This document shows, in pieces, positions 3,801 through 20,413 of a stretch of 20,413 nucleotides of DNA. Origin of the DNA: a virus; IMG/VR virus record IMGVR_UViG_3300006128_000080, positions 1-20,413 of that record, one strand, 5' to 3'. The notes below the pieces were generated by a model. The model did not search any database, had not been told where the DNA came from, and was given only the letters and a program-made list of their open reading frames with translations. Position 1 is the first letter of the stretch, and each line of letters starts with the position of its first letter. The position numbers were made by a program, and so were the translations under genes.

Positions 3801-3870
3801 CGTGGATATTATAAGTGCAGTTACTGCAGCTGAACTCAATCTTGGTAACACACTAGTAGGAACACCCTAA
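862..3870 (+). CDS. gp6: Baseplate wedge protein, gp6-like (enlarged)
   Basis: This 1002-residue protein resembles T4 gp6, the wedge protein that dimerises to form the continuous inner ring of the baseplate and is related to the gpJ/gp47 family. The N-terminal 120 residues carry the typical arrangement: 'DFTSYDFETLRASMIKYL', then 'YLALIDMLAFLGQSLAFR', then 'RDSILKLARMLSYNP'. The C-terminus has the family ending: 'ISAINAYFDIHNWDFGDTF' followed by 'FSELAAYLHTSLAPNLASV'. The middle, roughly residues 130-800, is Asn/Thr/Ser-rich and beta-like. It accounts for the extra length, since T4 gp6 has 660 residues. The ATG at 862 is chosen because AGG at 851-853 is correctly spaced and late motif AATAAATA lies at 835-842. 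Its stop overlaps the next start by one base (TAATG at 3868-3872), which suggests translational coupling. The terminal similarities are recognised from memory of the family; no alignment was run. Confidence 0.88.
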   Translation: MAQTTRQTNLLVEQDWTKVYQSFTNADFTSYDFETLRASMIKYLQTYYPESFNDFIESSEYLALIDMLAFLGQSLAFRTDLNARENFIDTAQRRDSILKLARMLSYNPTRTNSASGLLKIDSISTTESLMDSNGIDLTNTTVYWNDLTNDNWLEQFTTIINSALVTSQTIGKPGNSQSINGIQTDEYGINLNPALLPVAPFSVNINSSTVNFEAVSATTVGQTYIYERDPTQQGQFNILYQNDNNGNGSNNTGFFLYFKQGGLQATNFTINNSIPNNFVPITTNNINATDAWLYSLNVNNSVQTLWQQVPALPGVNVIYNQLTNKNLYQLNTTNNDQVNIVFGDGSFANIPQGAFRFYYRSSNGLNYSITPDDISNVTISLSYVNTNGTLQTLTISASLKYTVTNATSAQSLDSIKTYAPQQYYTQNRMITGEDYNIFPLTNFTSIQKVKAVNRTSSGVSLYLDTLDPTGTFSSTNIFADDGVLAANTYVGSSTFSFVTTNDIYNTIYNKIIPIVSSVGMTNYYYANYTRYLPPHNNITFTQATNGVTTNSSWGNLYYSGTVQTIGSIASGNLQYINAGSSLQFTNNGSTFYASVSRVVNNTQPYFGTVVPNGSTLTSIIAPFKNDLSNSLVSTIVSQIVARVNFGLTYDQTQQAWINIPPSNIGTSTNWLVKFTYNNGLYNIIYHQLEYNFISVGETNFYLDPTVKVYDSVIGASVSDTVKILKINSVPNGNTPIGSDITWNIYNVITANDGYVNGGQVLVNMPQTQVSGVPDNPDLFTTIAGASSARGGLYFQYRHNAPSRNRIDPTPVNIIDLYILTADHATSYINYLRDLTGTVKEPVAPTSSSLEIAYSALDNYKTVGDTIIYNPAQFLPLFGAKAQSSLRARFKVVKNPAVGITDNEIKSNIISAINAYFDIHNWDFGDTFYFSELAAYLHTSLAPNLASVLIVPEDDTLVFGNYFQINSEPWQIITSAATVDNVDIISAVTAAELNLGNTLVGTP

Positions 3871-6800
3871 TGCCAATTAGAAACACAATTAATCTTCTAC
3901 CTGAAGCATTTAGAAGCACAACCAATCAACGTTTTTTAGGGGCCACTGTAGATCACTTGACTGCAGAATCAGCCAATGTGCCGGTTAATGGCTATATTGG
4001 AAGAACGTTTGCGCCCACCTACAAACCTGGTGACAATTATGTTCCTGAAGCATCCGCCCTAAAAACCAATTATCAACTTGAACCCAGTGTGGTGATACGA
4101 GACAAAAATGGCAACGTTATTTTAAACAGCGACTACATCGAACTGTTGCAAAATATTGCCAACAATGGCGGTAATTCGCGTCTTCAGCAACGCCTATTTG
4201 AGTCACAAGACTACAATTTTGATGGGCATTTTGATTACGACAAATTTGTAAATCACAACAACTACTACTGGATGCCTAGCGGTCCGGACTCAGTCACAGT
4301 CAGTGCCAATCAAACTCCGTATGTGGCCAACTACACAGTGACTCGCGACACCAATGTTGGCGGATACACATTCAGTGGACTAGGCGGCCATCCCAATACT
4401 CAAATCAGTCTAGCACGTGGCGGCACATACACGTTCAACGTTGATCAGCCTGGCAATCAATTTTGGATTCAAAGCGAACCTGGAGTGCGTGGGGTTGACT
4501 CAAAAGTAAACACCATTAACACTCGTGATGTTTTTGGTGTTAAAAATAACGGCACCGACAATGGTACAATCACTTTCAATGTACCCTTGGCTGACGCACA
4601 GGATTTTTATACTGGGTTAGTAAACAAAGACACAGTAAACGCAGCAGTAACATTTAGATATACTGATATTCAAAATCAATTGTTGAGCACGTTCTTGACT
4701 CAATTCCCTGAGGGATTGGATGGAATCAATTCACAACTCAATAACAAAACTTTTATTTTTATCAATAATGATCTTGACGACAGTTATTGGACCACACCTG
4801 CACTGCCTGACAGTTTTGTTCCTCCTGACAGTTATGTGGCATCAAGTATTTCTCCAGGAGATGTAATTGGTTATCCCGCCACACTAGAAGTACCTCCATA
4901 CCTGTATGCACCTAGAACCAGTGTTTGGCAAATTACTCTAGTGCCCAGTGGCAACGACTACCTAATACAAATTAAACCAACAACATTGGTTTCTAGTTTA
5001 CAGAAAGTGTCTATTGGATCTGGAGCCACTTACGCTTCAAATCAATTCTGGTTAAACAACAATTATGCCTACAATATTGTACCGCTAATAACTGCCACCA
5101 CCAATTACTTGTATTATCAGGACAGTAACAATCCTGACTTTGTTGGCGAAATCAAAATTGTTGACAACACAGCAGTGCCCATCAACGTTACAAACGATAT
5201 CATTGGACGTCGAAGCTACACCAGTCCCAATGGAGTAATTTTTACCAATGGACTAAAAGTATTCTTCGATACCAGCGTAGTACCTGCTAGCTATGCCAGC
5301 GGCACCTACTATGTGGAAGGTGTTGGTACTGCCATAACACTGGTTCCAATCTCACAATTGGTTGTGCCTGAAGCCATTGGTCAAAATATTGCTACTACTC
5401 CTGAATATGTTACCATTAATCGTGCCAGCCAGGATCACAATCCATGGAGCCGATACAATCGTTGGTTTCATAAAGATGTACTAACAGCCACAGCCAAGTA
5501 CAACAATGCTGCCAGCGTTGATTACGGACCAAACATTGCGGCTCGCCGTGCCATTATTGAGTTTGAGCCTAATTTACAACTGTTTAATTTTGGCGTACAA
5601 GGCAAGTCCTGGGTCAATGTGCTTACAACGTCGGCCACAAATGCTTTTGCCACAATTGAAGGTCAAACCAGCTATACACTAGATGGAGTTGCATTGACCA
5701 CTGGCATGCGAGTTATATTTGCCAATGACTACGATCCCAACGTTACTAACACAATCTGTCAAGTGGATATTGAAACCATTGGTGGACAATCATTTCTAAG
5801 ACTGATCCCCACCAGCGACGATCCGGTACAGGCCGGAGAAAATGTTTTGGCCACTAGCGGCATACATGCCGGCGTCAGTTACTGGTTCAATGGTTTGTCT
5901 TGGACACAGAGTCAACAAAAGACCACAATTAACCAAGCACCCTTATTTGATCTTGTAGATGCCAACGGATACAGTTTTGGTGACACCACAGTATATCCAA
6001 ACACCACATTTGCTGGCACACCATTTTTTGGTTATGCAGTTGGTACTGGCACCAACGACAGTGTGCTGGGATTTCCCTTGGTATATCAAAATTTTAACAA
6101 CATTGGTGACATTGTTTTTGTTAACTATTATGACAACACAGACACCAAATATCCTCTTAATCAATTCACATACACCACAAACATCAATACTGGTACTACT
6201 GCCAATATCAGTTATAACTCAGGTTACCTAGCAAAAAATTCTGGGTTATCCACCCCAACAAAATTGAATAACTGGATTGCCACAGTTGAATCTACCAAGC
6301 AGTACCAGATCATCAGCAAGACCTATGAAGGGTATGTACTAGATATCAGTGGTACTAATTATCCGTTTATTCAAATTGACATATTGCCTGACGCAGAAAA
6401 AACCATACCCTATATCAAGGTCTACGTCAATAATACACTGCAAACTATTGATCAATACTCAATAACAAATTTTGGAGTATATCCAGTTGTTATTTTTAAA
6501 TCCACAGTGGCAATGGGCGATAAAATTGATGTTGCAGTTTATAACGCAGGTACAGCCAGTGGCCTAGGCTACTATCAAGTGCCGCAAAATCTTGATTTTA
6601 ATACTTTAAATAATAATTTTACAACCATAACGCTGGGACAGGTTAGAAATCATTATTATAAACTGATTGAAAATACCAATGTTGGCACTATCAATATTCC
6701 TGTACAAGACAACTATATAAAGGCCAAGGGCGGAACACTACTACAACACAGTAGTCCTTTAGTTTACGCTATGACATTCATGGCAGATCCTGTGGTGAAT

Positions 6801-9800
6801 TTCAAGAATGGACTTGATCTTGCACGTAAAGAATACAGTAAATTTAAAAATAAATTTATAAGTCTATGCAGTACATTGGGCACTCTTAAGCATTCAGACC
6901 CAGTGTCTGGGGTAGATACCATATTGAAAAATATCAACAGTGCCAAAAATAGCAGTTTTCCATGGTACTACAGTGACATGGTACCACAAGGCGGTGAGTA
7001 CAACACAACCACATACACTGTGCTCAATGCCAGACAACTGCAATACGAAATAAAAAGTATTTTTAACAATACTGTATTGAGTAATCGTGCAGTCATTATC
7101 TATTATACTCCGGCCAATACAACCGCAACACGTCAGCTGACTTTTGGTAAAGATTATACTTTCAGTCAAGTAATTCCAGCAGTGTTGTTTGACATCACGC
7201 TCACTGTTGGCGATACGATTAGCATCAGAGATTATATTACCACAGACGGTAATTATGTACCAGAAACTCCCACCAAGTTGGGACTGTATCCAAAAACTGT
7301 ACCAGTAAAATATCTAGATTCTACCTATATAAAACCCACCTATGTAATTAGAGGTCATGATGGTTCATTGACTCCGGCCTACAATGATTTTAGAGACGAT
7401 TACTTGCTGGAATTAGAATTAAGAATTTATAACAATATCAAGACCAACTACAACAAGAATTTTATAAATTTATATGATACCATCCCAGGCAAATTCAGAC
7501 GCACCGACTATGCAATTGCTGAATGGAATCGAGTACTGACACAGAATTTCTTATCTTGGGTTGGCATCAACAACATTGATTATACCACTAACAAATGGTA
7601 CAATGCCAACAATCCCTGGACCTGGAACTATACCAAATTCCTAGATGTCACGGCAACAACCAGCAATGCTAGTTACTTGAGTGGCTCTTGGCGTGCAGTA
7701 TATCAATACTGGTATGACACTGACACTCCACACTTGACCCCGTGGGAAATGCTGGGATTTGGTGCTGAACCTACATGGTGGCAAAAGCGTTACGGTCCTG
7801 CTCCTTATACAAGCGGTAACTTGGTGTTGTGGGAAGATCTAGCAGCAGGTTACGTTTGGAACAATGGCGATTCATATACAGATAGTCGTTTTGTTCGTCC
7901 TGGTTTGAACAAATTTATCCCTAGCGATCTTGCTGGCAACTTGCTGGATCCTACACAAATAGGGTTAGTAAAACAAGTTAATAATGCAACAGCATCCAGC
8001 AATTTTGCAGTAGGCGACCAAGGACCTGTAGAGACTGCATGGAGACGCAGCAGTGATTATCCGTTTGCTGTACAACATGCCATGGCATTCACAAGACCAG
8101 CACAGTATTTTGCAACACAAATTGACACCAGTCGTTTCTCGATAAATCCCATAACAGGACAGTTTAGTAACAGTGCCAATCAAAAGATAACTCCTTCGGC
8201 CCTGGTAGTCAACGGTGACACAGTGTCTGTTCCGGGATCGGTATTGCGTTCTAGCGGATACCTTAACTGGATCATTGACAACATAAAAAATCTAGGCATT
8301 GATCCAGTAGCAAAATTGAATACCTATTTTGCCAATTTTAATGTACAACTTGCCTACAAGGTGTCAGGTTTTACCGATCAAAATTTAATCACGGTCACTG
8401 CTGAACAAACCAGTCCGGGCAGTACCAATGCCAGTATCATTATACCACAAGAAAATTACAAAGTGTATCTTGGCCAACCAGTTTCAAGGGGCAGTATCAC
8501 ATATAGTGCAGTGATTGTAACAAAAACTGCTGCTGGGTATTCGGTGTCAGGATACGATACTGTAAATCCATTTTTTGTGGTTGTTCCTAGCGCAGCCAAT
8601 AACAATACCAGCACAATAACTGTTAACGGGGTTGACATAAAAGTGTATCGGGATGGCAACGGAAAGTTTTATAATGTTCCATACGGCACCACAATACCCA
8701 CTGAACAACAGTTGGTTGACTTCTTGGTCAGCTATCAACGTTATCTAGTCTACTCGGGATTTACATTTGATATATTTGACAATGACCTAAATCAAATGCG
8801 AGACTGGCTATTGAGTGCACGTGAGTTCTTATTCTGGTCACAACAAAACTGGGGACCAGGAACCTTGCTGGTACTAAGTCCAGTACTAGACACCATCAAG
8901 GTCAAGAGTCAAGGGGTAATCATTGGCGAAGTTACCAATACACCAGGTGGCAGCCGAATCATTGATACCAATTTCTCCCCCATTAAAAGTAGCTCGTTTA
9001 ATATACTGCGAAATGATTTTCCTTCGGGGCCTGAATACAATCAGTTTTCGTTACAGGTTGTTGACGGAAAATCTGTGATTGGTTTTGCCAGTTTGAATCT
9101 TGTGCAATATCAAAACACCTTGATATTTGACAATGTGGACGACTTTGGCGACATCATCTATGTTCCTGAACAAGGCACACGACAGTATCGTTTAAAATTG
9201 AACGGAACAAAAACTGGACAATGGGACGGAGCATTTGCGCCCACTGGCTATGTGTACAGTAACCCCACAATCAATTCATGGCAACCTGGCACCGATTATA
9301 AACAAGGTGACATTGTGTTGTACAACAACAGTTATTACACTGCACCTACCAATATTGTAGCAACTCAAACTTTTGCTCTAAGCAATTGGACACGAATACC
9401 GGCCAGCTCGATACAAAAAGGCTTACTGCCAAGTTTTGCACACAATGCCCAAGTATTCCAAAACATCTATGATGTGGATCGACCACCAGAAGATCACAAC
9501 TATCAAATCTTCAGTGCAGGCTTGATTGGGTTCCGTGAACGACCATTCTTGAGCAATCTTGGTCTAAATGTATCTACTCAAACCAAGTTCTACCAAGGCT
9601 ATATCAGTCAAAAGGGCACAGCAAATGCCATCGAAGCTCTAACCAAAGCCACGTTTGACAATGTCAACGGAACTATCAATACCTATGAAGAATGGGCTTT
9701 CCAGGTTGGTCGTTACGGCGACATCAACAACAACCTATACACTGAATTTGTACTAGATCAAAGTGTGTTCTCTAGCAATCCAGTTGCACTACTGTTGACC

Positions 9801-12800
9801 AACAACTACTCAACTGCAAACATAATTGTAAATCTTGCAGTGACCGGCAACACCACCACTTCAAATGTGTATAATGCCAGCAATATTTTTAGTTCGTCAA
9901 CCAACTTATTCTCTAACAGAAACAATGCAACTGTGTACCCTGCAGATTTACCTTCTCCAGGGTATGTCAATACCAACGACGTTGACCTAGAAATTTTTGA
10001 CATGACTGCCAATATCAACATTACCAATGCAGTTATTGGTAACAAAATTTGGACTGCCAAAGATGTCAACGGAAATTGGAATGTGTATCGTGTAACAGAA
10101 ACTGCAAATCTATCTGCGATCAATCTAAGATACACACTGGATTCATATGCACAATTGACATTCAATAATCCACATAATTTATCAGTCAATGACTTTTTTA
10201 TATTAACCGGATTCAACAACAAATTTGACGGAACATATCGTGTAACAGCAACACCAACTCAACTGTCAGTTGTGATTGTGTTACAGAATCCTGCTGATCT
10301 AATTAAACTAAACAGCACAGTTTCTGGCAGCGGAAAAATATTTTTATTGAAATCGCTACTGCTGAATTCAATACATGCGGTGGATAGCATACGTCCGCCT
10401 AATAATTGGATCAATAATGATCGTGTATGGATCAGCAGCGCAACGCCAAACGGATGGGGAGTTTATTCATTCAACCGTCCCTGGGCAGCCAACACCAGCG
10501 TGACAGTGACTGCTAACACTGTGGTGGCAAACACACAGTTTGGATCAGCAGTGGCAATCAGCACAGATGAAAAGTGGTTGTATGTTGGCAATCCTGGAAC
10601 CAAAACAGTACAGGTATTTGCCAATATTGGATACACCTACTCGGCCAACATCACAATCAGTAATGCAGCGCCTGGCTTTGGCACCACACTAGATACTCAA
10701 GGAAGTATTCTAGCAGTGGGCGCACCAGCATCGGGCAATGTACAAATTTATCAACACACTGGCGGTGCTTATGTGTGGATGCAGACTTTGACAGGAACCG
10801 GAAGTAATAAATTTGGTTCAAGTATAACTCTAAGTCGAGACGCACATTGGTTGTACGTTGGCGAGCCTGGCGGCAACAATGTGTATGCCTACTGGACTCA
10901 GCAAACTAGTGGAGCCAATGTGAACTATTCGCTTGTGACCGGAATCAATTTGGCCACAGGTGGTGCATTTGGATCTAGTGTTCGAACTGCTCAAAATGGT
11001 AATCTTGTCATTGTGGGCGCACCCTCAGCAACTAATCAAGTGCCCGGTAACGGAAACGTTTATGTTTACTCACAGACTGCAAATGTATTCACTCTAGTGC
11101 AAACATTAACAAGTCAATTCAAGGGCACTAACTCGGCATTTGGTACCAGTATAGCAATTGATCAGCTGGGCGGAAATCTATTTGTGGGTATACCAAACAG
11201 TCAAGCATCGCCTTACCGCAATGGATTAGTTGAACGCTACGTACTCGCCAGTGGAACCTACAGTTATGCCGGCAACATTGCTCACCCCGATTCCGCAGTT
11301 GGCTCATTTGGAACAGTCATGAGCATCACTGCTGATGCTCAAGTGTTGGCAGTATCAGGACAAGGTAGCAGCACCGAGGAAGATACTGTATTTGACAACA
11401 ATACCACAGTGATTGATGAAGGATCAACCAAGTTTGTAGAATTAGTTCCCAGCAGTGGCGCAGTATACATGCTGGAGCCCTTGTACGATCAAACACAATC
11501 GAATGATATAGGACAGTATTCATTTACACAATATCTCAGCGGGCGTGTCAGTACAGGAGATAATTTTGGTAGCAGTATTGCTACCACTAGAGACTTGGTC
11601 ATGGTAGGAGCCAGTGGCGCCAACAATGCAGCCGGTGTAGCGCACATTTACAACAATCCTGCACAGGCAACATCGTGGACACTGACAAGACAACAACAAC
11701 CCGCAGTTGATATATCCAGCATAAATCGTGCTTTTGTGTACAACAAAACAGACAACGTTATTCTTGGCGCTGTTGATTTTTTTGATCCTGCCAAAGGCAA
11801 AGTGTTAAACACTGTAGCAGTTGACATTGATTATCAATTGACTCATGATCCAGCACAATATAACGCTGGTACTGGAACTGTGATTGCTGACTATCACTGG
11901 GGCCCAGAGCAAGTTGGAAAAATTTGGTGGGATCTAGATGCAGTAAGATACATCAATTACGAACAAGACAGTTTGATTTACCGATTGAATTCATGGGGTA
12001 GAACTTTTACTGGCAGTCAAATTTTGGTGTACGAGTGGGTAGAAAGCTCAACACCGCCCAGTCAGTATACCGGTGATGGCGTACCAGCCTTTAGCGACGA
12101 CAGTGCTTACAGTACCTACGGGTATGTAAACAATGCTGGCGTGGTCAAATTAAAATACTACTTCTGGGTAAGAAACAAAACCAGTATAAATTCTGCGGCT
12201 GGCAAATCAAACAGCGTGTACAGTATTGCAGCAGCCATTGCCAATCCTCAAGCACAAGGAATACCTTATGCCACAGTGCTAAGAAATGACAGTGTGGCTC
12301 TCTACAATGTCAATGGGTTATTGACTGGTCAAAACAGTGTGTTGCACATAAGCAGCAAGAGCACAAATGCAAAATTGATACACAGCGAGTATGCATTGGT
12401 ACAAGAAGGCAATCCGCTAAGTGCCATACCAACTTTCATTGAACGCAAATTGGTTGACAGTTTGTCAGGGCAGGACAGTGCCGGAAACGCAGTACCTGAT
12501 CCCAATCTAACCTTGGCACAGAGCTACGGCATACAGATACGTCCGCGCCAAAGCATGTTTGTTAATAGACAACTGGCCATTGCCAATTATATTTCGTTTG
12601 TTAATACCAAGTTGTTGTCATATCCAATTGTACAACGCAAGATAATGACAACCTTGAACAGCCAAGAAGCAGTTCCTTTGGCAACATCAGGCGCTTACAA
12701 CAAGACTGTAACCACTTATGCTGAATTGGGCTATGTGAACACTGTGGGACTGTTGACTGGATACGCAGTTCTAGTAGAATCTGATGTGACCAATCTTGGT

Positions 12801-15308
12801 AAATGGGCAATTTATACTTGGTCTGGCTCTAGCTGGGCCGTTACTCGTGTACAGAGTTATAGAACTAATCTATATTGGACTTATACTGATTGGTACCAGG
12901 CCGGATACGACTATACTGTGGCTCCGTATTTGACTGTGGACAACAATCTTGAACTGGGCAAACAGACCTTAGTGGCCAATACCTATGTAAAAGTGTTGGA
13001 CAACGGCAACGGAGAATTTGTTGTCTATTATGTGGATAGCACATTGACTAAAAATGTTGTGGGAATACAAAACGGAACAGTACAGTTTTCAACTGGAACT
13101 ATTCCGTCAATTGAAATGCGTCAATTGGCCTTGGCCATACAAAACGATTTGTTCATTGATGATTTATCTTCGTACTACAATCAATTGTTCTTTACCATGA
13201 TCAAGTACGTGTTGACCGAACAAAAGAATCTTGATTGGGTATTCAAGACCAATTTCTTGAGTGTGACTCAACGTATTCGTGCCTTGGCACAATTTCCAAG
13301 TTATATTGCTGACAACCAAGAGTACTATCTGGACTATATCAAAGAAGTCAAACCCTACCGAACAGTTGTTAGACAGTTTGTGGTAGATTACCAAGGTAAT
13401 GATCAATACGGCGGAGACATGAGCGACTTTGATTTGCCACCTTATTGGGATGCCAATCTACAACTGTATCGTAGCCCCAATGGTGAACAAGCGTCAGATG
13501 CCTCCGCACTCACTAACGGACAATACAGTCAATGGACTAACAATTACACCTACAAAGTGGTTGATGTTGCTATTGAAAAGGCTGGTACTGGTTTTACTTT
13601 TGCACCAGCAATATCGTTTGAACCACCAAAATTTGCAAATGGCACACCCAACACCAGCGGTACCGCACAAGGTTACGCCACAATTGACGGAGTAGGTGGT
13701 ATAGCTTCTGTGGTCATTACCGATCCTGGATCGGGCTACACATTTAAACCAAATGTGATCATAAATGGTGTAGGTACCGGTGCTGGCGCTTACGCAGTAC
13801 TACGCAATGTGTATGATGGAAACAATAGCGGACACAATCTGGTACGCAGTTTATCAACCACAATCAAATTTGATCGTGTAAATTACACCAATGCCAACAC
13901 TTTTGTTACCTGGAACGATGTTGTTGCTGCAAACACCTATGCAGTTATACCTGCAAATACCATTCTGGTCAATAATTCAGAATTGTTTGCACTCACCAAC
14001 TCATATACATTTGACCCCACTGTACCGGCAACAACCTACTTTCCGTTGTCGACCACAACACCAGTGGCCTATGGTGATTTAAACAACGCCAATGATCGTA
14101 TTATTGCACAAAACGGCAACATTGATTTGGCTTATACACAATTGGGCTTGGATTATCCTGGAATTGTTGTTGACGGTAATACGTTTGTGGGCAATGTGTA
14201 CGATACAACCATAAGCAGTGTGTACACTGACAGCTTGGGAGTAGATCCTGGCAGTATCAATATTGATGGCGGTCCTTATGTAGGCGTGTTTGAATCTTGG
14301 GCACCAGAAGAACTGGTACCTGGGCGCATGTTTGATAATTTAAATCTTACTGCATACGATACAAATGCCATATCTTTTAGAGCGTTCCAGACCATGAACG
14401 GCAATCTGCGTTATTATAGAATAGCCAGTTTGTACAGTAGCACATTATCGGCCAATCTAAACTCAACAGATACCACGATTGAAGTAACCAATGCTGGCGC
14501 ACTACCAGCACCCAGTGCGACCAACAACTTCCCGGGTGTGGTGTTTATCAATGGTGAAAAAATTACCTACTGGAGAAACTATGCTACAGAAACTCCAGTG
14601 GCCTGGGCTGCCAATTTGGTCCTAAACACAAGAACCTTGATCAGTTATTCCGGCAACACCTACATTACATTGGGCAACATATTTGAATATACCGGCAATA
14701 TTGCCAATGTTGTCAGCAATATTCAACAGGTAAGTACCAATACCCTGGCACAAATTCGCAGAGGCGCTGATGGAACTTATACTCCAGCAGTGCATGTGAC
14801 CGGTAGCCGAGTAGTTGATGGTAGTGCACAACAGTTGGTACCTACCAGTGATTTACAGTATGCCAATATTGGATCAAATGCCGTAACCTATAACGTTACA
14901 TCAAATGTTTCCTATGCTTTGCGATTGACTGCCAACATTTCGGCTAATGTGGGCGATTATATTACCCAACTGTTCACATCTAACAGCGCAGTTGCAGCCA
15001 ATGTTGTAGTGCTAGGCAATGTGGCCAATGTGGCAGTGGTACCAGTAAGTTTTATTTCAGGCAGTCTCGCAGTGTTGGCCAACACTGTAAAAATAAATCA
15101 AACAGCAGCAGGCGTGAGCACAGTGTCAATTGCCAAATTGGGCATGGTCAACACCGCAGGCAACGTGACAATTGCGGCCAATACTGTACTGGCCAAGAGC
15201 AACATTTGGTATAATCCTGGACTGAGCCTGGATTCAAGCACTACAGGACCAGCATTATTCCTATCAAGCACACCAGGATTTACTCCTACACCAGGAACTA
15301 CGCCATGA
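3870..15308 (+). CDS. Giant mosaic virion protein in the gp7 (baseplate wedge) position
   Basis: One uninterrupted frame encodes 3812 residues. AGGA at 3858-3861 precedes the ATG by eight bases, and the start overlaps the gp6-like stop. Lying directly after gp6 places it where T4 has gp7 (1032 residues, a wedge protein that reaches outward to fibre proteins). Marine T4-like phages carry comparably large proteins here, some annotated as VrlC-like. Recognisable phage-type stretches are 'DYNFDGHFDYDKF' (about residue 115), 'DHNPWSRYNRWFHKDV' (about 525) and 'TPWEMLGFGAEPTWWQKRYG' (about 1290). Inserted modules are a cupredoxin-like domain (about 164-265), a W/Y carbohydrate-binding-like module (1804-1840), a seven-bladed FG-GAP-like propeller (about 2224-2595), GTGFT/GSGYT repeats (about 3230-3311) and a 'GEKITY...RRGADGT' module (about 3518-3655). 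There is no signal peptide or membrane segment. The stop shares ATGA with the next start. Virion role is probable; gp7 equivalence rests on position, not on visible sequence identity. Confidence 0.85.
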   Translation: MPIRNTINLLPEAFRSTTNQRFLGATVDHLTAESANVPVNGYIGRTFAPTYKPGDNYVPEASALKTNYQLEPSVVIRDKNGNVILNSDYIELLQNIANNGGNSRLQQRLFESQDYNFDGHFDYDKFVNHNNYYWMPSGPDSVTVSANQTPYVANYTVTRDTNVGGYTFSGLGGHPNTQISLARGGTYTFNVDQPGNQFWIQSEPGVRGVDSKVNTINTRDVFGVKNNGTDNGTITFNVPLADAQDFYTGLVNKDTVNAAVTFRYTDIQNQLLSTFLTQFPEGLDGINSQLNNKTFIFINNDLDDSYWTTPALPDSFVPPDSYVASSISPGDVIGYPATLEVPPYLYAPRTSVWQITLVPSGNDYLIQIKPTTLVSSLQKVSIGSGATYASNQFWLNNNYAYNIVPLITATTNYLYYQDSNNPDFVGEIKIVDNTAVPINVTNDIIGRRSYTSPNGVIFTNGLKVFFDTSVVPASYASGTYYVEGVGTAITLVPISQLVVPEAIGQNIATTPEYVTINRASQDHNPWSRYNRWFHKDVLTATAKYNNAASVDYGPNIAARRAIIEFEPNLQLFNFGVQGKSWVNVLTTSATNAFATIEGQTSYTLDGVALTTGMRVIFANDYDPNVTNTICQVDIETIGGQSFLRLIPTSDDPVQAGENVLATSGIHAGVSYWFNGLSWTQSQQKTTINQAPLFDLVDANGYSFGDTTVYPNTTFAGTPFFGYAVGTGTNDSVLGFPLVYQNFNNIGDIVFVNYYDNTDTKYPLNQFTYTTNINTGTTANISYNSGYLAKNSGLSTPTKLNNWIATVESTKQYQIISKTYEGYVLDISGTNYPFIQIDILPDAEKTIPYIKVYVNNTLQTIDQYSITNFGVYPVVIFKSTVAMGDKIDVAVYNAGTASGLGYYQVPQNLDFNTLNNNFTTITLGQVRNHYYKLIENTNVGTINIPVQDNYIKAKGGTLLQHSSPLVYAMTFMADPVVNFKNGLDLARKEYSKFKNKFISLCSTLGTLKHSDPVSGVDTILKNINSAKNSSFPWYYSDMVPQGGEYNTTTYTVLNARQLQYEIKSIFNNTVLSNRAVIIYYTPANTTATRQLTFGKDYTFSQVIPAVLFDITLTVGDTISIRDYITTDGNYVPETPTKLGLYPKTVPVKYLDSTYIKPTYVIRGHDGSLTPAYNDFRDDYLLELELRIYNNIKTNYNKNFINLYDTIPGKFRRTDYAIAEWNRVLTQNFLSWVGINNIDYTTNKWYNANNPWTWNYTKFLDVTATTSNASYLSGSWRAVYQYWYDTDTPHLTPWEMLGFGAEPTWWQKRYGPAPYTSGNLVLWEDLAAGYVWNNGDSYTDSRFVRPGLNKFIPSDLAGNLLDPTQIGLVKQVNNATASSNFAVGDQGPVETAWRRSSDYPFAVQHAMAFTRPAQYFATQIDTSRFSINPITGQFSNSANQKITPSALVVNGDTVSVPGSVLRSSGYLNWIIDNIKNLGIDPVAKLNTYFANFNVQLAYKVSGFTDQNLITVTAEQTSPGSTNASIIIPQENYKVYLGQPVSRGSITYSAVIVTKTAAGYSVSGYDTVNPFFVVVPSAANNNTSTITVNGVDIKVYRDGNGKFYNVPYGTTIPTEQQLVDFLVSYQRYLVYSGFTFDIFDNDLNQMRDWLLSAREFLFWSQQNWGPGTLLVLSPVLDTIKVKSQGVIIGEVTNTPGGSRIIDTNFSPIKSSSFNILRNDFPSGPEYNQFSLQVVDGKSVIGFASLNLVQYQNTLIFDNVDDFGDIIYVPEQGTRQYRLKLNGTKTGQWDGAFAPTGYVYSNPTINSWQPGTDYKQGDIVLYNNSYYTAPTNIVATQTFALSNWTRIPASSIQKGLLPSFAHNAQVFQNIYDVDRPPEDHNYQIFSAGLIGFRERPFLSNLGLNVSTQTKFYQGYISQKGTANAIEALTKATFDNVNGTINTYEEWAFQVGRYGDINNNLYTEFVLDQSVFSSNPVALLLTNNYSTANIIVNLAVTGNTTTSNVYNASNIFSSSTNLFSNRNNATVYPADLPSPGYVNTNDVDLEIFDMTANINITNAVIGNKIWTAKDVNGNWNVYRVTETANLSAINLRYTLDSYAQLTFNNPHNLSVNDFFILTGFNNKFDGTYRVTATPTQLSVVIVLQNPADLIKLNSTVSGSGKIFLLKSLLLNSIHAVDSIRPPNNWINNDRVWISSATPNGWGVYSFNRPWAANTSVTVTANTVVANTQFGSAVAISTDEKWLYVGNPGTKTVQVFANIGYTYSANITISNAAPGFGTTLDTQGSILAVGAPASGNVQIYQHTGGAYVWMQTLTGTGSNKFGSSITLSRDAHWLYVGEPGGNNVYAYWTQQTSGANVNYSLVTGINLATGGAFGSSVRTAQNGNLVIVGAPSATNQVPGNGNVYVYSQTANVFTLVQTLTSQFKGTNSAFGTSIAIDQLGGNLFVGIPNSQASPYRNGLVERYVLASGTYSYAGNIAHPDSAVGSFGTVMSITADAQVLAVSGQGSSTEEDTVFDNNTTVIDEGSTKFVELVPSSGAVYMLEPLYDQTQSNDIGQYSFTQYLSGRVSTGDNFGSSIATTRDLVMVGASGANNAAGVAHIYNNPAQATSWTLTRQQQPAVDISSINRAFVYNKTDNVILGAVDFFDPAKGKVLNTVAVDIDYQLTHDPAQYNAGTGTVIADYHWGPEQVGKIWWDLDAVRYINYEQDSLIYRLNSWGRTFTGSQILVYEWVESSTPPSQYTGDGVPAFSDDSAYSTYGYVNNAGVVKLKYYFWVRNKTSINSAAGKSNSVYSIAAAIANPQAQGIPYATVLRNDSVALYNVNGLLTGQNSVLHISSKSTNAKLIHSEYALVQEGNPLSAIPTFIERKLVDSLSGQDSAGNAVPDPNLTLAQSYGIQIRPRQSMFVNRQLAIANYISFVNTKLLSYPIVQRKIMTTLNSQEAVPLATSGAYNKTVTTYAELGYVNTVGLLTGYAVLVESDVTNLGKWAIYTWSGSSWAVTRVQSYRTNLYWTYTDWYQAGYDYTVAPYLTVDNNLELGKQTLVANTYVKVLDNGNGEFVVYYVDSTLTKNVVGIQNGTVQFSTGTIPSIEMRQLALAIQNDLFIDDLSSYYNQLFFTMIKYVLTEQKNLDWVFKTNFLSVTQRIRALAQFPSYIADNQEYYLDYIKEVKPYRTVVRQFVVDYQGNDQYGGDMSDFDLPPYWDANLQLYRSPNGEQASDASALTNGQYSQWTNNYTYKVVDVAIEKAGTGFTFAPAISFEPPKFANGTPNTSGTAQGYATIDGVGGIASVVITDPGSGYTFKPNVIINGVGTGAGAYAVLRNVYDGNNSGHNLVRSLSTTIKFDRVNYTNANTFVTWNDVVAANTYAVIPANTILVNNSELFALTNSYTFDPTVPATTYFPLSTTTPVAYGDLNNANDRIIAQNGNIDLAYTQLGLDYPGIVVDGNTFVGNVYDTTISSVYTDSLGVDPGSINIDGGPYVGVFESWAPEELVPGRMFDNLNLTAYDTNAISFRAFQTMNGNLRYYRIASLYSSTLSANLNSTDTTIEVTNAGALPAPSATNNFPGVVFINGEKITYWRNYATETPVAWAANLVLNTRTLISYSGNTYITLGNIFEYTGNIANVVSNIQQVSTNTLAQIRRGADGTYTPAVHVTGSRVVDGSAQQLVPTSDLQYANIGSNAVTYNVTSNVSYALRLTANISANVGDYITQLFTSNSAVAANVVVLGNVANVAVVPVSFISGSLAVLANTVKINQTAAGVSTVSIAKLGMVNTAGNVTIAANTVLAKSNIWYNPGLSLDSSTTGPALFLSSTPGFTPTPGTTP
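4359..4665 (+). other. Cupredoxin-like beta domain inside the giant protein, metal ligands apparently lost
   Basis: Residues about 164-265 show the order seen in cupredoxin-like domains of marine phage and bacterial proteins. First comes an 'LARGGTYTFNV' strand, then 'QPGNQFWIQS', then a loop, 'KNNGTDNGTITFNVP' and a last strand. In copper-binding relatives the second element is usually 'GHPFWI' and the last loop holds Cys/His. Here these positions read 'GNQFWI' and 'FYTGLVNKDTV', so the expected His and Cys ligands are missing. The fold is probable from the motif order. The domain is likely structural and not redox-active. Confidence 0.55.
9279..9389 (+). other. Small CBM5/12-like (chitin-binding-type) module inside the giant protein
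   Basis: Residues 1804-1840 follow the spacing typical of CBM5/12 domains: W1804, then 'GTDYKQGDIVLYNNSYYTA', a loop, and W1840. The Trp, Tyr, Gly-Asp, Val, paired Tyr and final Trp are the residues that build this small fold and often its sugar-binding face. Such modules occur in chitinases and in phage tail proteins. Sugar binding is inference from the pattern alone. Confidence 0.5.
10539..11655 (+). repeat. Seven FG-GAP-like repeats, predicted beta-propeller, inside the giant protein
   Basis: Seven repeats begin with Phe-Gly at residues 2224, 2270, 2315, 2367, 2424, 2480 and 2566. Each continues as 'FGSS/FGTS' plus a hydrophobic strand, then a second strand of the 'LYVGNPG', 'LAVGAP', 'VIVGAP' or 'VMVGASG' type, and a third ending 'VQVF', 'VQIY', 'VYAY', 'VYVY' or 'AHIY'. 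This is the pattern of FG-GAP or integrin-alpha-like propellers. Spacings are 46, 45, 52, 57, 56 and 86 residues. Blade six holds an acidic insertion of about 30 residues after 'SGQGSSTEED'. The Ca-binding DxDxDG loop found in many FG-GAP proteins is absent. Seven repeats match a closed seven-bladed propeller. Confidence 0.75.
13557..13802 (+). repeat. Paired GTGFT/GSGYT repeats near the C-terminus of the giant protein
   Basis: Residues about 3230-3311 hold two copies of a beta unit. Copy one reads 'VAIEKAGTGFTFAPAISF' and is followed by a 'TSGTAQGYATI' segment. Copy two reads 'VVITDPGSGYTFKPNVIING' followed by 'VGTGAGAYAVL'. This 'I...G.GYT..P.V...G.G.GA.A' unit recurs in tail and fibre proteins of marine phages. 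It is probably a structural stalk or capping element. Confidence 0.55.
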
Positions 15309-16009: not shown

Positions 16010-18016
16010 ATGAGTTACTTAATTAATCTAACGCAAAATGGAACTCTGCTAACAACAGTGGCAGATGGCACAGTTAACAAGAACACTGGCCTAACTCTTG
16101 TGGGTAGAAACTATCCCAGTTACGGACAGATTCAAAATGAAAACTTTGTAAAACTGCTGGAAAATTTTGCCGATACCATTAATCCCACTCTAAGTAGTGC
16201 AGCAGTAACTCCACTCACTGGTATGTTATGGTACGACAGTGGACTACAGAAGCTAAAAGTCTATGACGGCAACAACTGGAGCGCAGTCAGTGAACGCATA
16301 GTATCTGCTACCGCACCAACCTCGGTCTATTATACTATCAAACCAGGCGATCAGTGGTATGACACCACAAACAATCAGCTAAATGCCTGGGACGGATCAG
16401 CTTGGCAAATAGTTGGCCCGGCATTTAAGTCTTCACAGGGTGTAACCGGAGCTCAGGTCGGCACCATTGTTGATACCAACAGTGTGGGCCATACAGTGGT
16501 CAATACCTATACTAATGGTAATTTGATTTCAATTACCAGTTTTGATTCAGCATTTACTCCGGCCAGCACCATCACAGGATTCTCTACCATTGTGCCCGGT
16601 ATCAATTTATTGAGCAATGTGATTGTAAATGGCAACGTAACAAATAGTGCCACCTTGGGTGGCATCAGCCCCAGCAGTTTTGCCAGAGTTGATCGATCAA
16701 GTAATTTTACAAACAGTGTTGGAATCGCAGGCAATCTTACTCTAGGCAGTGTAACTGGCGCTTATGCCAACATACATTTCAGTGGCACCAACAATCTTGT
16801 GTTACACAATTGGGCCTATCAAGGCAATGTCAACTTCTATGTAAACAGCAGCCTAGGTAACATAACCACACTGCACTTTAGCGGTGCTACTGGTCTCGGA
16901 ACTGTTTATGGCAATCCAGTTGACCCCATGGGCATAGCAACCAAGAGCTATGTGGATGCTGCAGTTGGTGCACAGGTACAAGATGTACAAAACGTAGCCG
17001 ATCAATTCTACGGTGATATTGCTAGTCTAGCACAAGACTATCTAGCCAATGTAAATGTAATCAATGGTGCAATTGCCAATACTGCTGTCAATGCCACTGC
17101 TAATTTAAATTCATTGCACTCGTTGATAGACAGTAATGTTGCTGCGATCAGTGCCAATATCGGCGCATATCAATTGTATGCTAATGCCAATGCCAAGAGT
17201 ATTCAGTCCAATGTAAACTCATTGTATCGAACATTGTTTGGTCCCGATGACGTATCTGGTCTAGTGTCAACCTTGGCCAGAATCAACAATCCAGCATTTA
17301 CCGGAAATCCCACAACCACAAATGTACCAAGTTTGGTGGCAGCAGTGGCCGAACTGGGCGCACTTGACATACAGGTTACATTTAATCAGGCATTATCAAT
17401 CAATCCCGGTGATTTTGTAATTCAAATTGACCCCACTTCAGGACAAGCATTATCTAACATTGTGAGTATATCAACCACAACTGATAGTCAAACAGCTGAT
17501 TTTGTTGTGACCACTGGTGCCATAAGCACATGGGCAAACACCGTGACGTTCCTAAATGGTGCATTATTATCTGGCACACACATAACATCATTTACCACAG
17601 TTGGAGAACCACTGGCATTCAGTGGACTTGGCGATTCAAGTAGCAGTATAGCGTCTACACTGTATGTTGACGTTACTGCCAATTTGATTTATGCTGACTA
17701 CACTACCAAATTGGCAACTTTAGGTAGCACTCTAACAGGCGATGTCAACAATTTGCTGACCTACAAAGCAAATATAGCAAGCCCGCAATTGACCGGATAT
17801 CCAACTGCACCCGATCCTGCTGCATTGACATGGGGCACAAGCGCACACAACTTCACTGGCGGGGGTACTTTACCAGGGACTGGTGTAATATCATATTTGG
17901 CTACAACCAACTTTGTTGAACAATCAATAGCTGCACAAAAATTCAATTACACAGTGAGCCCCAATGCACCCAGTGGCGGCAGTGATGGTGACTTCTGGTT
18001 CCAGACCGTGAGTTAA
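16010..18016 (+). CDS. Modular tail-fibre-like protein with coiled-coil-like section
   Basis: The protein has 668 residues. Residues 1-60 form a domain ending 'YGQIQNENFVKLLENFADTI', shared with the next-but-one gene, and possibly the attachment domain. Two 'WYD...LKVYDG..W' units follow (W74 to W90 and W116 to W132); such units are common in marine phage fibres. Residues 308-408 begin 'GIATKSYVDAA' and continue as an Ala/Asn/Val-rich helical stretch, probably a trimeric coiled coil. An 'AFTGNPTTTNVPS' unit (about 429) and a 'QLTGYPTAP' unit (about 593) bracket a beta-rich insert beginning near residue 451. The 'IA..xYVD' motif recurs at 309, 547 and, as 'LATTNFVE', 630. The C-terminus, 'GGSDGDFWFQTVS', resembles a cut-short 'GD.W' unit. 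The CDS starts 6 bases after the previous stop, with only a weak GGA upstream. It lacks an obvious receptor-binding tip, so it may be a stalk that carries the glycine-rich protein. That pairing is inference. Confidence 0.85.
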   Translation: MSYLINLTQNGTLLTTVADGTVNKNTGLTLVGRNYPSYGQIQNENFVKLLENFADTINPTLSSAAVTPLTGMLWYDSGLQKLKVYDGNNWSAVSERIVSATAPTSVYYTIKPGDQWYDTTNNQLNAWDGSAWQIVGPAFKSSQGVTGAQVGTIVDTNSVGHTVVNTYTNGNLISITSFDSAFTPASTITGFSTIVPGINLLSNVIVNGNVTNSATLGGISPSSFARVDRSSNFTNSVGIAGNLTLGSVTGAYANIHFSGTNNLVLHNWAYQGNVNFYVNSSLGNITTLHFSGATGLGTVYGNPVDPMGIATKSYVDAAVGAQVQDVQNVADQFYGDIASLAQDYLANVNVINGAIANTAVNATANLNSLHSLIDSNVAAISANIGAYQLYANANAKSIQSNVNSLYRTLFGPDDVSGLVSTLARINNPAFTGNPTTTNVPSLVAAVAELGALDIQVTFNQALSINPGDFVIQIDPTSGQALSNIVSISTTTDSQTADFVVTTGAISTWANTVTFLNGALLSGTHITSFTTVGEPLAFSGLGDSSSSIASTLYVDVTANLIYADYTTKLATLGSTLTGDVNNLLTYKANIASPQLTGYPTAPDPAALTWGTSAHNFTGGGTLPGTGVISYLATTNFVEQSIAAQKFNYTVSPNAPSGGSDGDFWFQTVS

Positions 18017-18018
18017 AA

Positions 18019-20223
18019 ATGCCAGTACTTTCTACCAATAACCTTAACTTTGCAAATGTATTTGTTCAACAGAGTGGAGTACAAGTAACAGCCAATTATA
18101 TCCATGTAAAACAAAGTGGTAAATGGAACAAAGTTAGCGATGTTTACCGAAACGTAAACGGCACATGGCTACAGATATGGCCCACCACTGGAGTTGTATT
18201 ATTTGACAGAGACGCCACAATAACTGTACCGCCTGGAATTAATTATGCCACCATCCTGGTTATTGGTGGCGGTGGCGGTGGCGGACAAGGTAAAACTGCC
18301 CAAGGACATAACGGAGCCGGGGGCGGTGGTGGCGGTGGTGGAGTAGTTTACGAACAAGGAATTCCAGTAACTGCAAGTGAAAAATTTATTATCACTATAG
18401 GTAAAGGTGGTGCTGGAGCCGCTAGCAATAGTGGTAACGGTGGTGCTGATGGGGGCGATACATCAATTACAGGTTGCGTGAGCGGAACGCCCACAACTTA
18501 CACTGCACACGGGGGCACTGGTGGATCAGGATTTAATGGCCCACATGGACCGTCTGTTACAACTAGTAGTGGATGTTGTAGTAGTTACACAACTTATTCG
18601 CCTTACATAGGTCCAGGCGGATCTGGTGGCGGTGGTTATAGCACACGTGATAGCCCAGGAATAAGCCCACCCACTCCAGGTGGTGCACAAGGTTATGCTG
18701 GCGGATACGGAGCAACTAACAACAGTATTGATGCTGGTGGTGGTGGTGGAGGTGCCGGCGGACAAGGCGGTGCAGCCGCTGTTGGAGTTGGAGGTTCCGG
18801 CGGTGTTGGAATACAAAACAATATCACTGGACAATGCACTTACTACGCTGGAGGTGGTGCCGGCGGTGTTACCAATCCTGGGCAAGGTACAGGTGCCAGT
18901 GGCGGACTAGGTGGTGGAGGCGATAGCGGACAAGATGCCACATATTATGGTGGAGGCGGTGGAGGCGGTGGTGCCGGCTCAGATAGTTCTGTGGGTCCAG
19001 CATCTGGTAATGGCCACGACGGAGCAGTAATAGTTAATTTTTATTCTAGATACAATGGCGCAGTCAAATTAGAAACCGACAGCGGTACCGGAAAAATTAA
19101 TGTGCCCACTGGCCGTGAAATAAGTTATACAAACACCTGTTTTGATCCCAAGGCATTGGTTTACATGGCCGACGGTACTTACAAAATGATTAAAGATATT
19201 GTTGTTGGCGATAAAGTTGTAAACAGTAAAGGCGGTGTTAATACTGTGATTGGAATAGAAACTCCGGTGTTGGGCACTCGCTTGATGTACAAGTTTAATA
19301 ATCATTGGGCATTTGTATCTGAGGAACATCCATTATTAACCACACAAGGATGGGCAGCATTTGATCCAGACAGTTCGGCAGTTGAAGCACCGTTTAAAGG
19401 CAATCTAAAGAAAATCACAATTGGCACTGAACTTGTTAAATTTGATGGAACTGAAACAGTCGCCAGTATTTCTACTGAAACTCAAGATCCTGATTATGTA
19501 ATTTATAATTTGTCACTGGATGGCGACCATACTTACATAGTTGAAGGATTTGTAGTACACAACAAAGACGACGGATGCTTTGCTGAAGACGCAGTAATAA
19601 GTATGGCAGATGGCTCCTTCAAAGACATTGCTGATGTGCAAGTTGGTGACAAAGTTTATAATTACAACAAGACATCAGTCAATCAAGTGGTATATATAGA
19701 ATCGGTGTACAATGACACTTTACCAATGTATTCACCATCAGACGAATTCGTCCCATTTGCAACACTGAATCATCCGTTGTATATTGATGGGGTATTGACT
19801 ACTCCTACTGCTGATTATCCTTATCCTTGGCTTGACGTAAAAAATACAATTGATGCTATCACTGCACCAATTAGTCATAAAACAGTTTATAACTTATGGG
19901 TCACTGTCGATCACACCTATGTTGTAAACGGGTACGGGACACATTCTATCATTGATGACGGCGGATTCCTACCAGAATTGATTGAGCGAAATAAGTTAAC
20001 GCACGACGAAGCCATGCAATCTATTAGAATCTGCACATCTGCTGGCATTGATATCATGTACGGAAGTTACATCTTTATCAAACTCTTCAAGAAAATACCA
20101 GCATTATGGATTAAAACTTTCTTTGCTAGAAGTCTGTTAACTGAATCAATTGCACAAAAATTTGTGTTGTCAGTGTTTAAAGTGTCGGGCAAGATAGCAA
20201 ATTTAATAAAGCAATTTAGATAA
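18019..20223 (+). CDS. Glycine-rich adhesin-like protein with two C-terminal Hint (intein-like) domains
   Basis: The protein has 734 residues and starts 2 bases after the preceding stop, without a strong Shine-Dalgarno, so it is probably coupled. Residues 1-60 contain a 'VKQSGKWNKVSDVYRNVNGTW' type beta module. Residues 83-342 are the polyglycine region, introduced by 'ITVPPGINYATILVIGG' and closed by 'GHDGAVIVNFYS'; it holds C153, C186-C187 and C273. After a 31-residue linker, Hint domain 1 spans C374 to N515. Four residues (KDDG) separate it from Hint domain 2, C520 to S643. Residues 644-734 form a tail that becomes cationic and hydrophobic from about 675. Glycine-rich domains act as receptor-binding tips in phages such as S16 (gp38). 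Hint domains cleave or splice themselves. A self-processing, fibre-tip adhesin is the best reading. It could instead be a virion protein where Hint is a vestigial fusion. The Gly-rich family and first Hint domain are firm; the processing is inferred. Confidence 0.88.
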   Translation: MPVLSTNNLNFANVFVQQSGVQVTANYIHVKQSGKWNKVSDVYRNVNGTWLQIWPTTGVVLFDRDATITVPPGINYATILVIGGGGGGGQGKTAQGHNGAGGGGGGGGVVYEQGIPVTASEKFIITIGKGGAGAASNSGNGGADGGDTSITGCVSGTPTTYTAHGGTGGSGFNGPHGPSVTTSSGCCSSYTTYSPYIGPGGSGGGGYSTRDSPGISPPTPGGAQGYAGGYGATNNSIDAGGGGGGAGGQGGAAAVGVGGSGGVGIQNNITGQCTYYAGGGAGGVTNPGQGTGASGGLGGGGDSGQDATYYGGGGGGGGAGSDSSVGPASGNGHDGAVIVNFYSRYNGAVKLETDSGTGKINVPTGREISYTNTCFDPKALVYMADGTYKMIKDIVVGDKVVNSKGGVNTVIGIETPVLGTRLMYKFNNHWAFVSEEHPLLTTQGWAAFDPDSSAVEAPFKGNLKKITIGTELVKFDGTETVASISTETQDPDYVIYNLSLDGDHTYIVEGFVVHNKDDGCFAEDAVISMADGSFKDIADVQVGDKVYNYNKTSVNQVVYIESVYNDTLPMYSPSDEFVPFATLNHPLYIDGVLTTPTADYPYPWLDVKNTIDAITAPISHKTVYNLWVTVDHTYVVNGYGTHSIIDDGGFLPELIERNKLTHDEAMQSIRICTSAGIDIMYGSYIFIKLFKKIPALWIKTFFARSLLTESIAQKFVLSVFKVSGKIANLIKQFR
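18265..19044 (+). repeat. Polyglycine-rich adhesin region (residues 83-342)
   Basis: About 260 residues are dominated by Gly runs of four to eight, separated by short loops rich in Ser, Thr, Ala and Tyr. The order is the common phage glycine-rich domain: 'VPPG...VIGGGGGGG', '...KFIITIGKGGAG', many GG runs, and a closing 'GAVIVNFYS'. In the S16 gp38 structure, such runs pack as polyglycine-II helices with variable loops exposed for receptor binding. The DNA is a string of near-identical GGC/GGT/GGA tracts, so it is prone to recombination and slippage. It also produces a spurious long open frame on the - strand. Confidence 0.8.
19138..19563 (+). other. Hint domain 1 (intein-like, apparently cleavage-competent)
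   Basis: Block A begins at C374: 'CFDPKALVYMADGTYKMIKD' followed by 'IVVGDKV'. The block B position is 'SEEHPLLT' with H437. Block F is 'DGDHTYIVEGFVVHN' ending in H514-N515. The nucleophilic Cys, block B His and His-Asn end are the residues needed for N-S acyl shift and Asn cyclisation. There is no homing-endonuclease insert, since the domain has only 142 residues. The residue after Asn is K516, not Cys/Ser/Thr. This resembles bacterial intein-like domains, which usually cleave without clean ligation. Confidence 0.82.
19576..19947 (+). other. Hint domain 2 (diverged tandem copy, terminal Asn replaced by Ser)
   Basis: Block A begins at C520: 'CFAEDAVISMADGSFKD' followed by 'IADVQVGDKV'. It is identical to domain 1 at 15 of 27 positions. 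Block B is 'TLNHPLYI' (T582, H585), the classical TxxH form. Block F is 'VDHTYVVNGYGTHS', where H642 is kept but Asn is replaced by S643. Both copies are followed by a DDG motif (517-519 after domain 1, 646-648 after domain 2), which supports a duplication. Cys-based N-terminal cleavage could remain possible, while Asn cyclisation is not. Confidence 0.72.
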
Positions 20224-20244: not shown

Positions 20245-20413
20245 ATGCCATATACAATTTCAACCAGCGATAATTCAGTACAAATTACTGTACCCGACAG
20301 TCAATTTGATAACACTACCCTGTTGACTCTAGCCGGACCAAATGCTGTTGGTTATGGACAATATCTAGATAAAAATCAACTGATGTTGCTGGAAAATTTT
20401 GCATCAAACATTC
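20245..20413 (+). CDS. N-terminal part of a second fibre-like protein (runs off window)
   Basis: The ATG at 20245 follows an AGAGAA stretch at 20233-20238 with acceptable spacing and lies 21 bases after the previous stop. Fifty-six residues are visible. Residues 28-56 ('TLAGPNAVGYGQYLDKNQ' and 'LMLLENFASNI') match the N-terminal domain of the 668-residue protein at 16010-18016 at 15 of 29 positions. The shared domain is probably an attachment or trimerisation head, so this is likely another fibre or a paralogue. The rest is outside the window. Confidence 0.8.
   Translation, partial: MPYTISTSDNSVQITVPDSQFDNTTLLTLAGPNAVGYGQYLDKNQLMLLENFASNI

Follow-up and report, generated by a model that had tools for sequence, protein, structure and literature searches.

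A glycine-rich phage adhesin ending in two Hint domains of different families and a helical domain, a candidate autoprocessing array with relatives in uncultivated viruses

A-type bacterial intein-like (BIL) domains end in HN, have no nucleophile at +1 and reside in non-conserved host proteins (PMC7765530, PMC4031507). They form a thioester on Cys1, cyclise their Asn and can ligate through the freed amine, with cleavage as the dominant outcome (PMC4031507). In B-type BIL domains block G is absent (PMC7765530), and Tetrahymena BIL2, from the BUBL1 polyubiquitin locus, is reported to form an isopeptide through the epsilon-amine of Lys (PMC8616854). Single Hint domains of phages have already been annotated; the architecture described below appears to be new within the Hint/BIL superfamily. 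The cultured Providencia phage PSTNGR1 and Achromobacter phages JWF and 2-1 resemble our case in having, beside tail genes, a tail protein with an endonuclease-free C-terminal Hint of 130-160 aa, but their Hints are single-copy and have neither HN/K nor a helical domain. Adjacent Hints, 7-16 residues apart, are also present in the viral contigs L062 and L072 (L numbers denote loci examined here), although in both contigs the neighbouring Hint is of the classical intein kind, with Cys at +1 in L062 and Ser and Cys in L072. The pair in L062 (5302-8805) consists of back-to-back inteins separated by a seven-residue extein, CKVPFDL, and the second has an endonuclease-sized insert.

The stretch of DNA analysed here, hereafter the window, is a viral fragment of 20,413 nucleotides that includes a contractile-tail module. 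In it, genes of the baseplate wedge, recognized by PHROG matches, are followed by a 3,812-aa ORF, a 232-aa gene and then the 734-aa Hint adhesin (Table 1); relatives of the 232-aa gene in jumbo phages of the RaK2/121Q/CBB type are 35-49% identical. The 3,812-aa ORF (3870-15308) is in a single frame directly 3′ of a gp6-like baseplate gene and encodes an unusually long tail protein.

Table 1. Positions of the Hint adhesin and its parts in the window.
Feature	Coordinates	Strand	Evidence
734-aa ORF, phage adhesin, Gly-rich, tandem Hints at the C-terminus	18019..20223	+	intact ORF; Gly_rich_2; phrog_2295 9e-32
Gly-rich region, residues 66-342	18214..19044	+	Pfam PF21722 (Gly_rich_2) E=4.4e-11
Hint1, residues 374-515: Cys1; blocks B (SEEH), F (YN...HTY) and G (VVHN)	19138..19563	+	profiles, tree
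Hint1 block B, S434-E-E-H437	19318..19329	+	His invariant, alignment A3 column 64
H514-N515 / K516, putative site of Asn cyclisation, Lys at +1	19558..19566	+	family HN + K/R conservation
Linker KDDG between Hint1 and Hint2	19564..19575	+	sequence position; comparable linkers in other arrays
Hint2, residues 520-643: Cys1, T582-L-N-H585, D631, degenerate block G	19576..19947	+	alignment A5, structure model
Hint2 block B, TLNH	19762..19773	+	sequence conservation
~90-aa five-helix C-terminal domain	19951..20220	+	alignment; helices pLDDT 92-98 in model

Two Pfam profiles, Hom_end_hint (PF05203, E=4.5e-11) as well as Hint (PF01079, E=8.5e-11), matched the full 734-aa protein above their curated cut-offs, each in two stretches, confirming the tandem Hints of the original prediction, and Cys374 (codon from 19138), Asn515 (19561-19563), the KDDG linker and Cys520 were all found in the intact ORF where that prediction had placed them. 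A family HMM scored the two domains at 4e-40 and 2e-38, and they match each other at ~1e-7 in single-sequence phmmer. TIGR01443, the intein C-terminus, matched Hint1 only and not Hint2. The domains do not qualify as pretoxin HINT (PT-HINT), a class in which a PF07591 match precedes a toxin domain, as PF07591 was matched below its cut-off and the tail resembled no known domain; a weak match of PHROG_36001 to both Hints was uninformative. As had been read earlier, neither domain carries an endonuclease: at 142 and ~124 aa they are too short to hold one, and no LAGLIDADG or HNH match was obtained from Pfam or NCBIfam.

Hint1 belongs to a large HN-K family of phage Hints and is 71% identical to the Hint of L160. 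As the original prediction held, VHNK Hints are present in other phage proteins. Like class 1 inteins it has Cys1, a TxxH-type block B (SEEH) and a C-terminal HN, but residue +1 is K516 instead of Cys, Ser or Thr. The C-terminal HN, the lack of a +1 nucleophile and the non-conserved host protein are the features that define A-type BILs. The host is a variable adhesin, and the original view that this is no classical intein in a conserved enzyme is supported. The closest PDB entry to the Hint1-family profile was the A-type BIL of Clostridium thermocellum (2LWY, 2e-11), followed by Tetrahymena BIL2 (3e-9). Hint1 shares with 2LWY the Hint fold, Cys1, the block B His, the C-terminal HN, the absence of Cys, Ser or Thr at +1 and a variable host protein. 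Unlike it, the phage Hints are found on virion proteins, have strictly Lys or Arg at +1 and Asn in block F, and occur in tandem arrays with one-residue spacers.

Hint2 is of a different kind. Its C-terminal end reads NGYGTHSI, without Asn, and ~90 residues follow; it has the intein motifs except block G, as in B-type BILs. The original prediction treated the two Hints alike, which does not hold, and it ended the feature at 19947, where the Hint positions were right but the functional unit continues to 20220. The polypeptide it noticed after Hint2 does exist, but it had missed that this is a conserved domain accompanying the Hint2 family. In the alignment of the window Hint2 and its tail with 44 other non-redundant sequences, end to end (A5), identity is 31-50%, C1, T63, H66 and D112 are invariant in 45/45 sequences, and block G is lost throughout, with Ser or another residue replacing Asn. 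Likewise, Cys1 and the T and H of TxxH are invariant over 39 tail-Hints of 30-50% identity. The helical domain is always downstream of a Hint2-family Hint and never occurred without a Hint in the loci examined.

An AlphaFold2 model of Hint2 with this domain, made from the 45-sequence alignment, shows a Hint fold plus a five-helix domain (pLDDT 96.5, pTM 0.90); a mixed alignment (A4), in which Hint1 was paired with the wrong Hint, was left out of modelling, and the model of the full tandem (pLDDT 70.6) is too weak for the relative orientation of the two Hints. Searched against the PDB with Foldseek, the Hint2 model best matched Tetrahymena BIL2 (6TMM/6Y75, 8e-7), and other top matches were a Vint domain, also from Tetrahymena, the BIL of C. 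thermocellum and inteins; the helical domain on its own matched nothing in the PDB. BIL2 is also similar in lying between independently folded domains, but it is eukaryotic, has ubiquitin-like exteins and lacks a helical C-terminal domain. Hint2 resembles B-type BILs and the Hedgehog Hog domain in keeping the N-S shift residues without a C-terminal Asn, and Hog in particular in always having a dedicated domain after it. In contrast to Hog, whose architecture of a Hint without Asn and then a domain it matches, its helical domain is unrelated in sequence to known recognition regions, and neither Pfam nor Foldseek gave a sequence or fold match to any of them, adduct-recognition regions included. 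Foldseek matches to Hedgehog were weaker than to BIL2 (E 2-3e-3), and nothing points to sterol. The window's helical tail had no Pfam, PHROG or NCBIfam match at E<0.1. Two resemblances of this tail, to the C-termini of the L017/L018 adhesins (read by eye) and to an 'ICTAMN' module, were rejected by profile comparison (E 0.48 and 0.24, respectively).

The different make-up of the two Hints is reflected in a tree of 119 Hints, in which 39/39 tail-Hints fall in one clade (support 0.992) and the window Hint1 falls in an HN/K clade of 8 members (support 0.961). This tree rejects tandem duplication as the origin of the pair: since Hint1 and Hint2 belong to separate clades, the pair is a fusion of two distinct families and not a recent duplication.

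Relatives of both Hints were gathered by iterated searches of IMG/VR, so that the counts are of retrieved samples and are lower bounds. Among the matches listed, 74 HN-ending Hints remained after reduction to 70% identity, and their +1 residue was most often K (51 Hints), followed by C (10), R (6) and T (3), the remaining 4 having some other residue; those with C or T were mostly classical inteins in other proteins, together with L048, L181 and L216. The preference for K/R, on which the original prediction had not remarked, was not selected for, since the search alignment stopped at Asn. As an independent test, IMG/VR was scanned for VHN-x-CFxxGT with x left free and a Hint required on both sides, and of 32 such junctions 25 had K, 6 had R and one had Y (K/R 31/32). 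These +1 counts come from related sequences, many of which are not independent events, and after clustering at 40% identity +1 was K in 12/26 clusters and C in 8/26. In the 57 non-redundant Hints with K or R at +1 (about 30-50% identity), Cys1, the block-B His and HN are invariant (57/57), block B of the family being (T/S)xxH. The block-F Asp of inteins assists the +1 nucleophile. Block F is Asn in 57/57 K/R Hints, compared with Asn 5, Asp 4 and Cys 1 in 10 Hints with C/T at +1 (Fisher 2.6e-5 for Asn). The block-F Asp and the +1 nucleophile are both lost while Cys1, TxxH and HN are fully kept, a pattern that favours cleavage, or ligation by an amine, over canonical splicing.

The tandem arrangement, which had been regarded as unfamiliar, proved to be recurrent. 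Adjacent Hints were found in at least 29 distinct ORFs among loci retrieved from uncultivated phages, with up to seven copies among the matches listed: L133 has seven, L110 five, L122, L190 and L235 four each, and L167, L168 and L238 three each. A Hint2-family Hint with its helical domain (Hint2-helix) terminates six of these ORFs, the window included, and all array Hints other than this cap end in HN. The spacer is often a single Lys (VHN/K/CFIAGT), and the linkers seen were K, KD, KG, KEG, KGG and KDPGEG; among the matches listed, L167 (KDPGEG) and L168 (KEG) have the layouts closest to the window, which with two Hints and KDDG is the minimal, shortest array. A further tandem subfamily with Arg at +1, VHN/R/CFVAGT (L251, L253, L254, L256, L258 and L264), differs in sequence from the Lys arrays and possibly comes from other virus groups. 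L181 (1300-7065) has three tandem Hints whose block F contains Asp and whose two internal +1 residues are Cys, and by these residues is a predicted splicing-competent natural counterpart of the Lys arrays. In L200 (2881-5667) the three Hints have Lys, Ala and Gly at +1, the last two breaking the Lys/Arg rule. In open-access full text we found no description of phage Hint arrays of up to seven, of the Lys/Arg rule at +1 for Hints, or of a Hint-helix cassette common to hubs, long tail proteins and adhesins, and the poly-Hint arrangement in phages is apparently widespread and undescribed.

The Hint2-helix cassette caps unrelated phage structural proteins, namely DUF4815/phrog_358 long tail proteins (L054 and L058), gp5-like baseplate hubs (L065, L082 and L087), Gly-rich proteins (the window and L094) and an Ig/LRR protein (L049). 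The N-terminal flank is mostly Gly-rich, with Gly at residue -1 in 22/39 Hint2-family Hints. The cassette is frequent in uncultivated viral contigs and was not found in 50,697 cultured phage records, which gave weak Hint-only matches alone. A single Hint-helix match was obtained from 84,980 bacterial and archaeal genomes, in a Burkholderiales groundwater MAG, where the cassette is part of a Pro-rich protein fragment at one end of a 279-kb contig (L243, JACPOK010000026.1, 1-8918); this sequence is probably phage-derived. Searched as exact peptides against viral contigs, the window's own Hint pair and the tail alone had no relatives, and the relatives of its Hints were reached by profile searches. 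Many single- and double-Hint proteins have, after HN/K, an alternative to the helical cap, a C-terminal module of ~110 aa that starts [IV]ICT(A/E/K)(M/L) (L163, L172, L175, L192, L213, L223 and L233). In profile comparison it weakly resembles the 'CCVISTAL' C-termini, without Hints, of the Gly-rich adhesins L017/L018. A search without a positive control found no Hints in 33 distinct records of tail-module relatives.

In DUF4815 proteins the K/R Hint ends one residue before a conserved DP(L/I)AQ(T/S)F motif. The Hint-free homologue of phage Melnitz runs uninterrupted across this site, and L232 is ~45% identical to the Melnitz protein on either side of its Hint. Since the site is a linker, splicing and cleavage are both conceivable here. 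Other Hints lie 1-3 residues from the C-terminus (L067, KIA; L201 and L215, KD; L216, T). Having so few residues after HN, they argue against the joining of exteins as a general purpose; such Hints would be senseless as splice elements and sensible as cleavage elements.

With moderate confidence, we favour the reading that the C-terminal half of the adhesin is a two-member autoprocessing array, in which an A-type BIL (Hint1) is followed by a distinct Hog/B-type-like Hint2-helix. In Hint1, the C-terminus of the adhesin would be shifted onto Cys374 as a thioester and Asn515 would cyclise, cutting HN/K516 and releasing the downstream part; because Cys, Ser or Thr is missing at +1, canonical splicing is not available to it. 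Adhesin 1-373 would then mostly be freed, or be ligated to Lys516 through its amine. Hint2-helix (520-734) keeps the residues for the N-S acyl shift and, lacking Asn, would be limited to opening the bond before Cys520, so that Hint2 and the helical domain may be shed in one piece or the upstream chain passed to a nucleophile. The helical domain may bind that nucleophile, as the Hedgehog recognition region does, or may be an assembly aid shed together with Hint2. We infer this array chemistry, its products and its role in virion-protein maturation from sequence. More generally, the phage Hints are most likely A-type and B-type/Hog-like BILs that would cleave a structural protein from its C-terminal array, and array Hints would probably cut themselves from, or join themselves to, their neighbours. 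Self-cleavage of the adhesin, proposed originally, is plausible as a general idea, but freeing of its tip is too specific, since the modules are also on hub and DUF4815 proteins. Against our reading, the single-residue gap between HN and DPLAQTF in DUF4815 proteins would fit splicing too.

An unlikely alternative is that Hint1 is an ordinary mini-intein, or a degenerate remnant of one, that inserted beside a resident Hint2 and splices or decays without phage function. The K/R Hints of DUF4815 proteins do interrupt a sequence that is unbroken in Hint-free phages, Melnitz among them, and the close relatives L048 and L181 combine a block-F Asp with Cys at +1. However, Hint1 has no endonuclease, Lys at +1 and Asn in block F, the fully conserved catalytic residues speak against decay, arrays of 3-7 Hints and copies 1-3 residues from C-termini do not fit, and Hint2 and the helical domain are left unexplained. 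The same conservation bears on a purely structural use, which we consider quite improbable: caps and chaperones are common at the C-termini of fibrous proteins, where these Hints reside, but Hints that merely space adhesins or cap their trimers would not need invariant Cys1, TxxH and HN. N-terminal Lys and Arg are destruction marks of the proteobacterial Aat/ClpS/ClpAP route, and a cut at HN/K or HN/R would expose them, so that the shed array might be destroyed by the host. Charge or such a degron would explain the K/R set (31/32 junctions), as isopeptide formation alone does not. We nevertheless hold this to be highly improbable, given that the degron would land on an essential-looking half of the DUF4815 proteins.

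Ligation of the arrays through Lys, as for Tetrahymena BIL2, is possible by analogy, and it leads to a rather unlikely reading in which a Lys side chain, either that of the +1 residue or one belonging to a different virion or host protein, attacks the thioester of Cys374 or of other array Cys residues, and an isopeptide covalently staples structural proteins together. K is at +1 in 51/57 K/R Hints, BIL2, which ranks first among the structural matches and second by sequence, is reported to use this chemistry (PMC8616854), and the joint absence of a +1 nucleophile and of Asp in block F suggests non-canonical chemistry. Yet ~10% have Arg at +1, which is incapable of isopeptide formation, and no acceptor can be named for Hint2. 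Carried further, and just as tentatively, poly-Hint arrays of the form [Hint-Lys]n plus a Hint-helix cap, with n=1 in the window, might be enzyme-free conjugation devices in which each thioester is resolved by lysine; virion proteins would then be shed, capped or cross-linked in a programmed order. More generally, if the domains are active, a widespread phage maturation chemistry has been overlooked by genome annotation, and the arrays would be a natural source of modules for sequential, enzyme-free protein cleavage and ligation. The phage arrays make the long-standing question of the purpose of BILs testable in the virion.

Two related tail-fibre-type genes, at 16010-18016 and 20245-20413, flank the Hint adhesin; their N-terminal domains are paralogous, with 42% identity across 56 aa (E=1e-8). 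At the position equivalent to the window's adhesin, L018 has a pair of adjacent Gly-rich genes (6225-7151 and 7565-8302), whose CCVISSAL C-terminal modules are near-identical while their N-termini differ.
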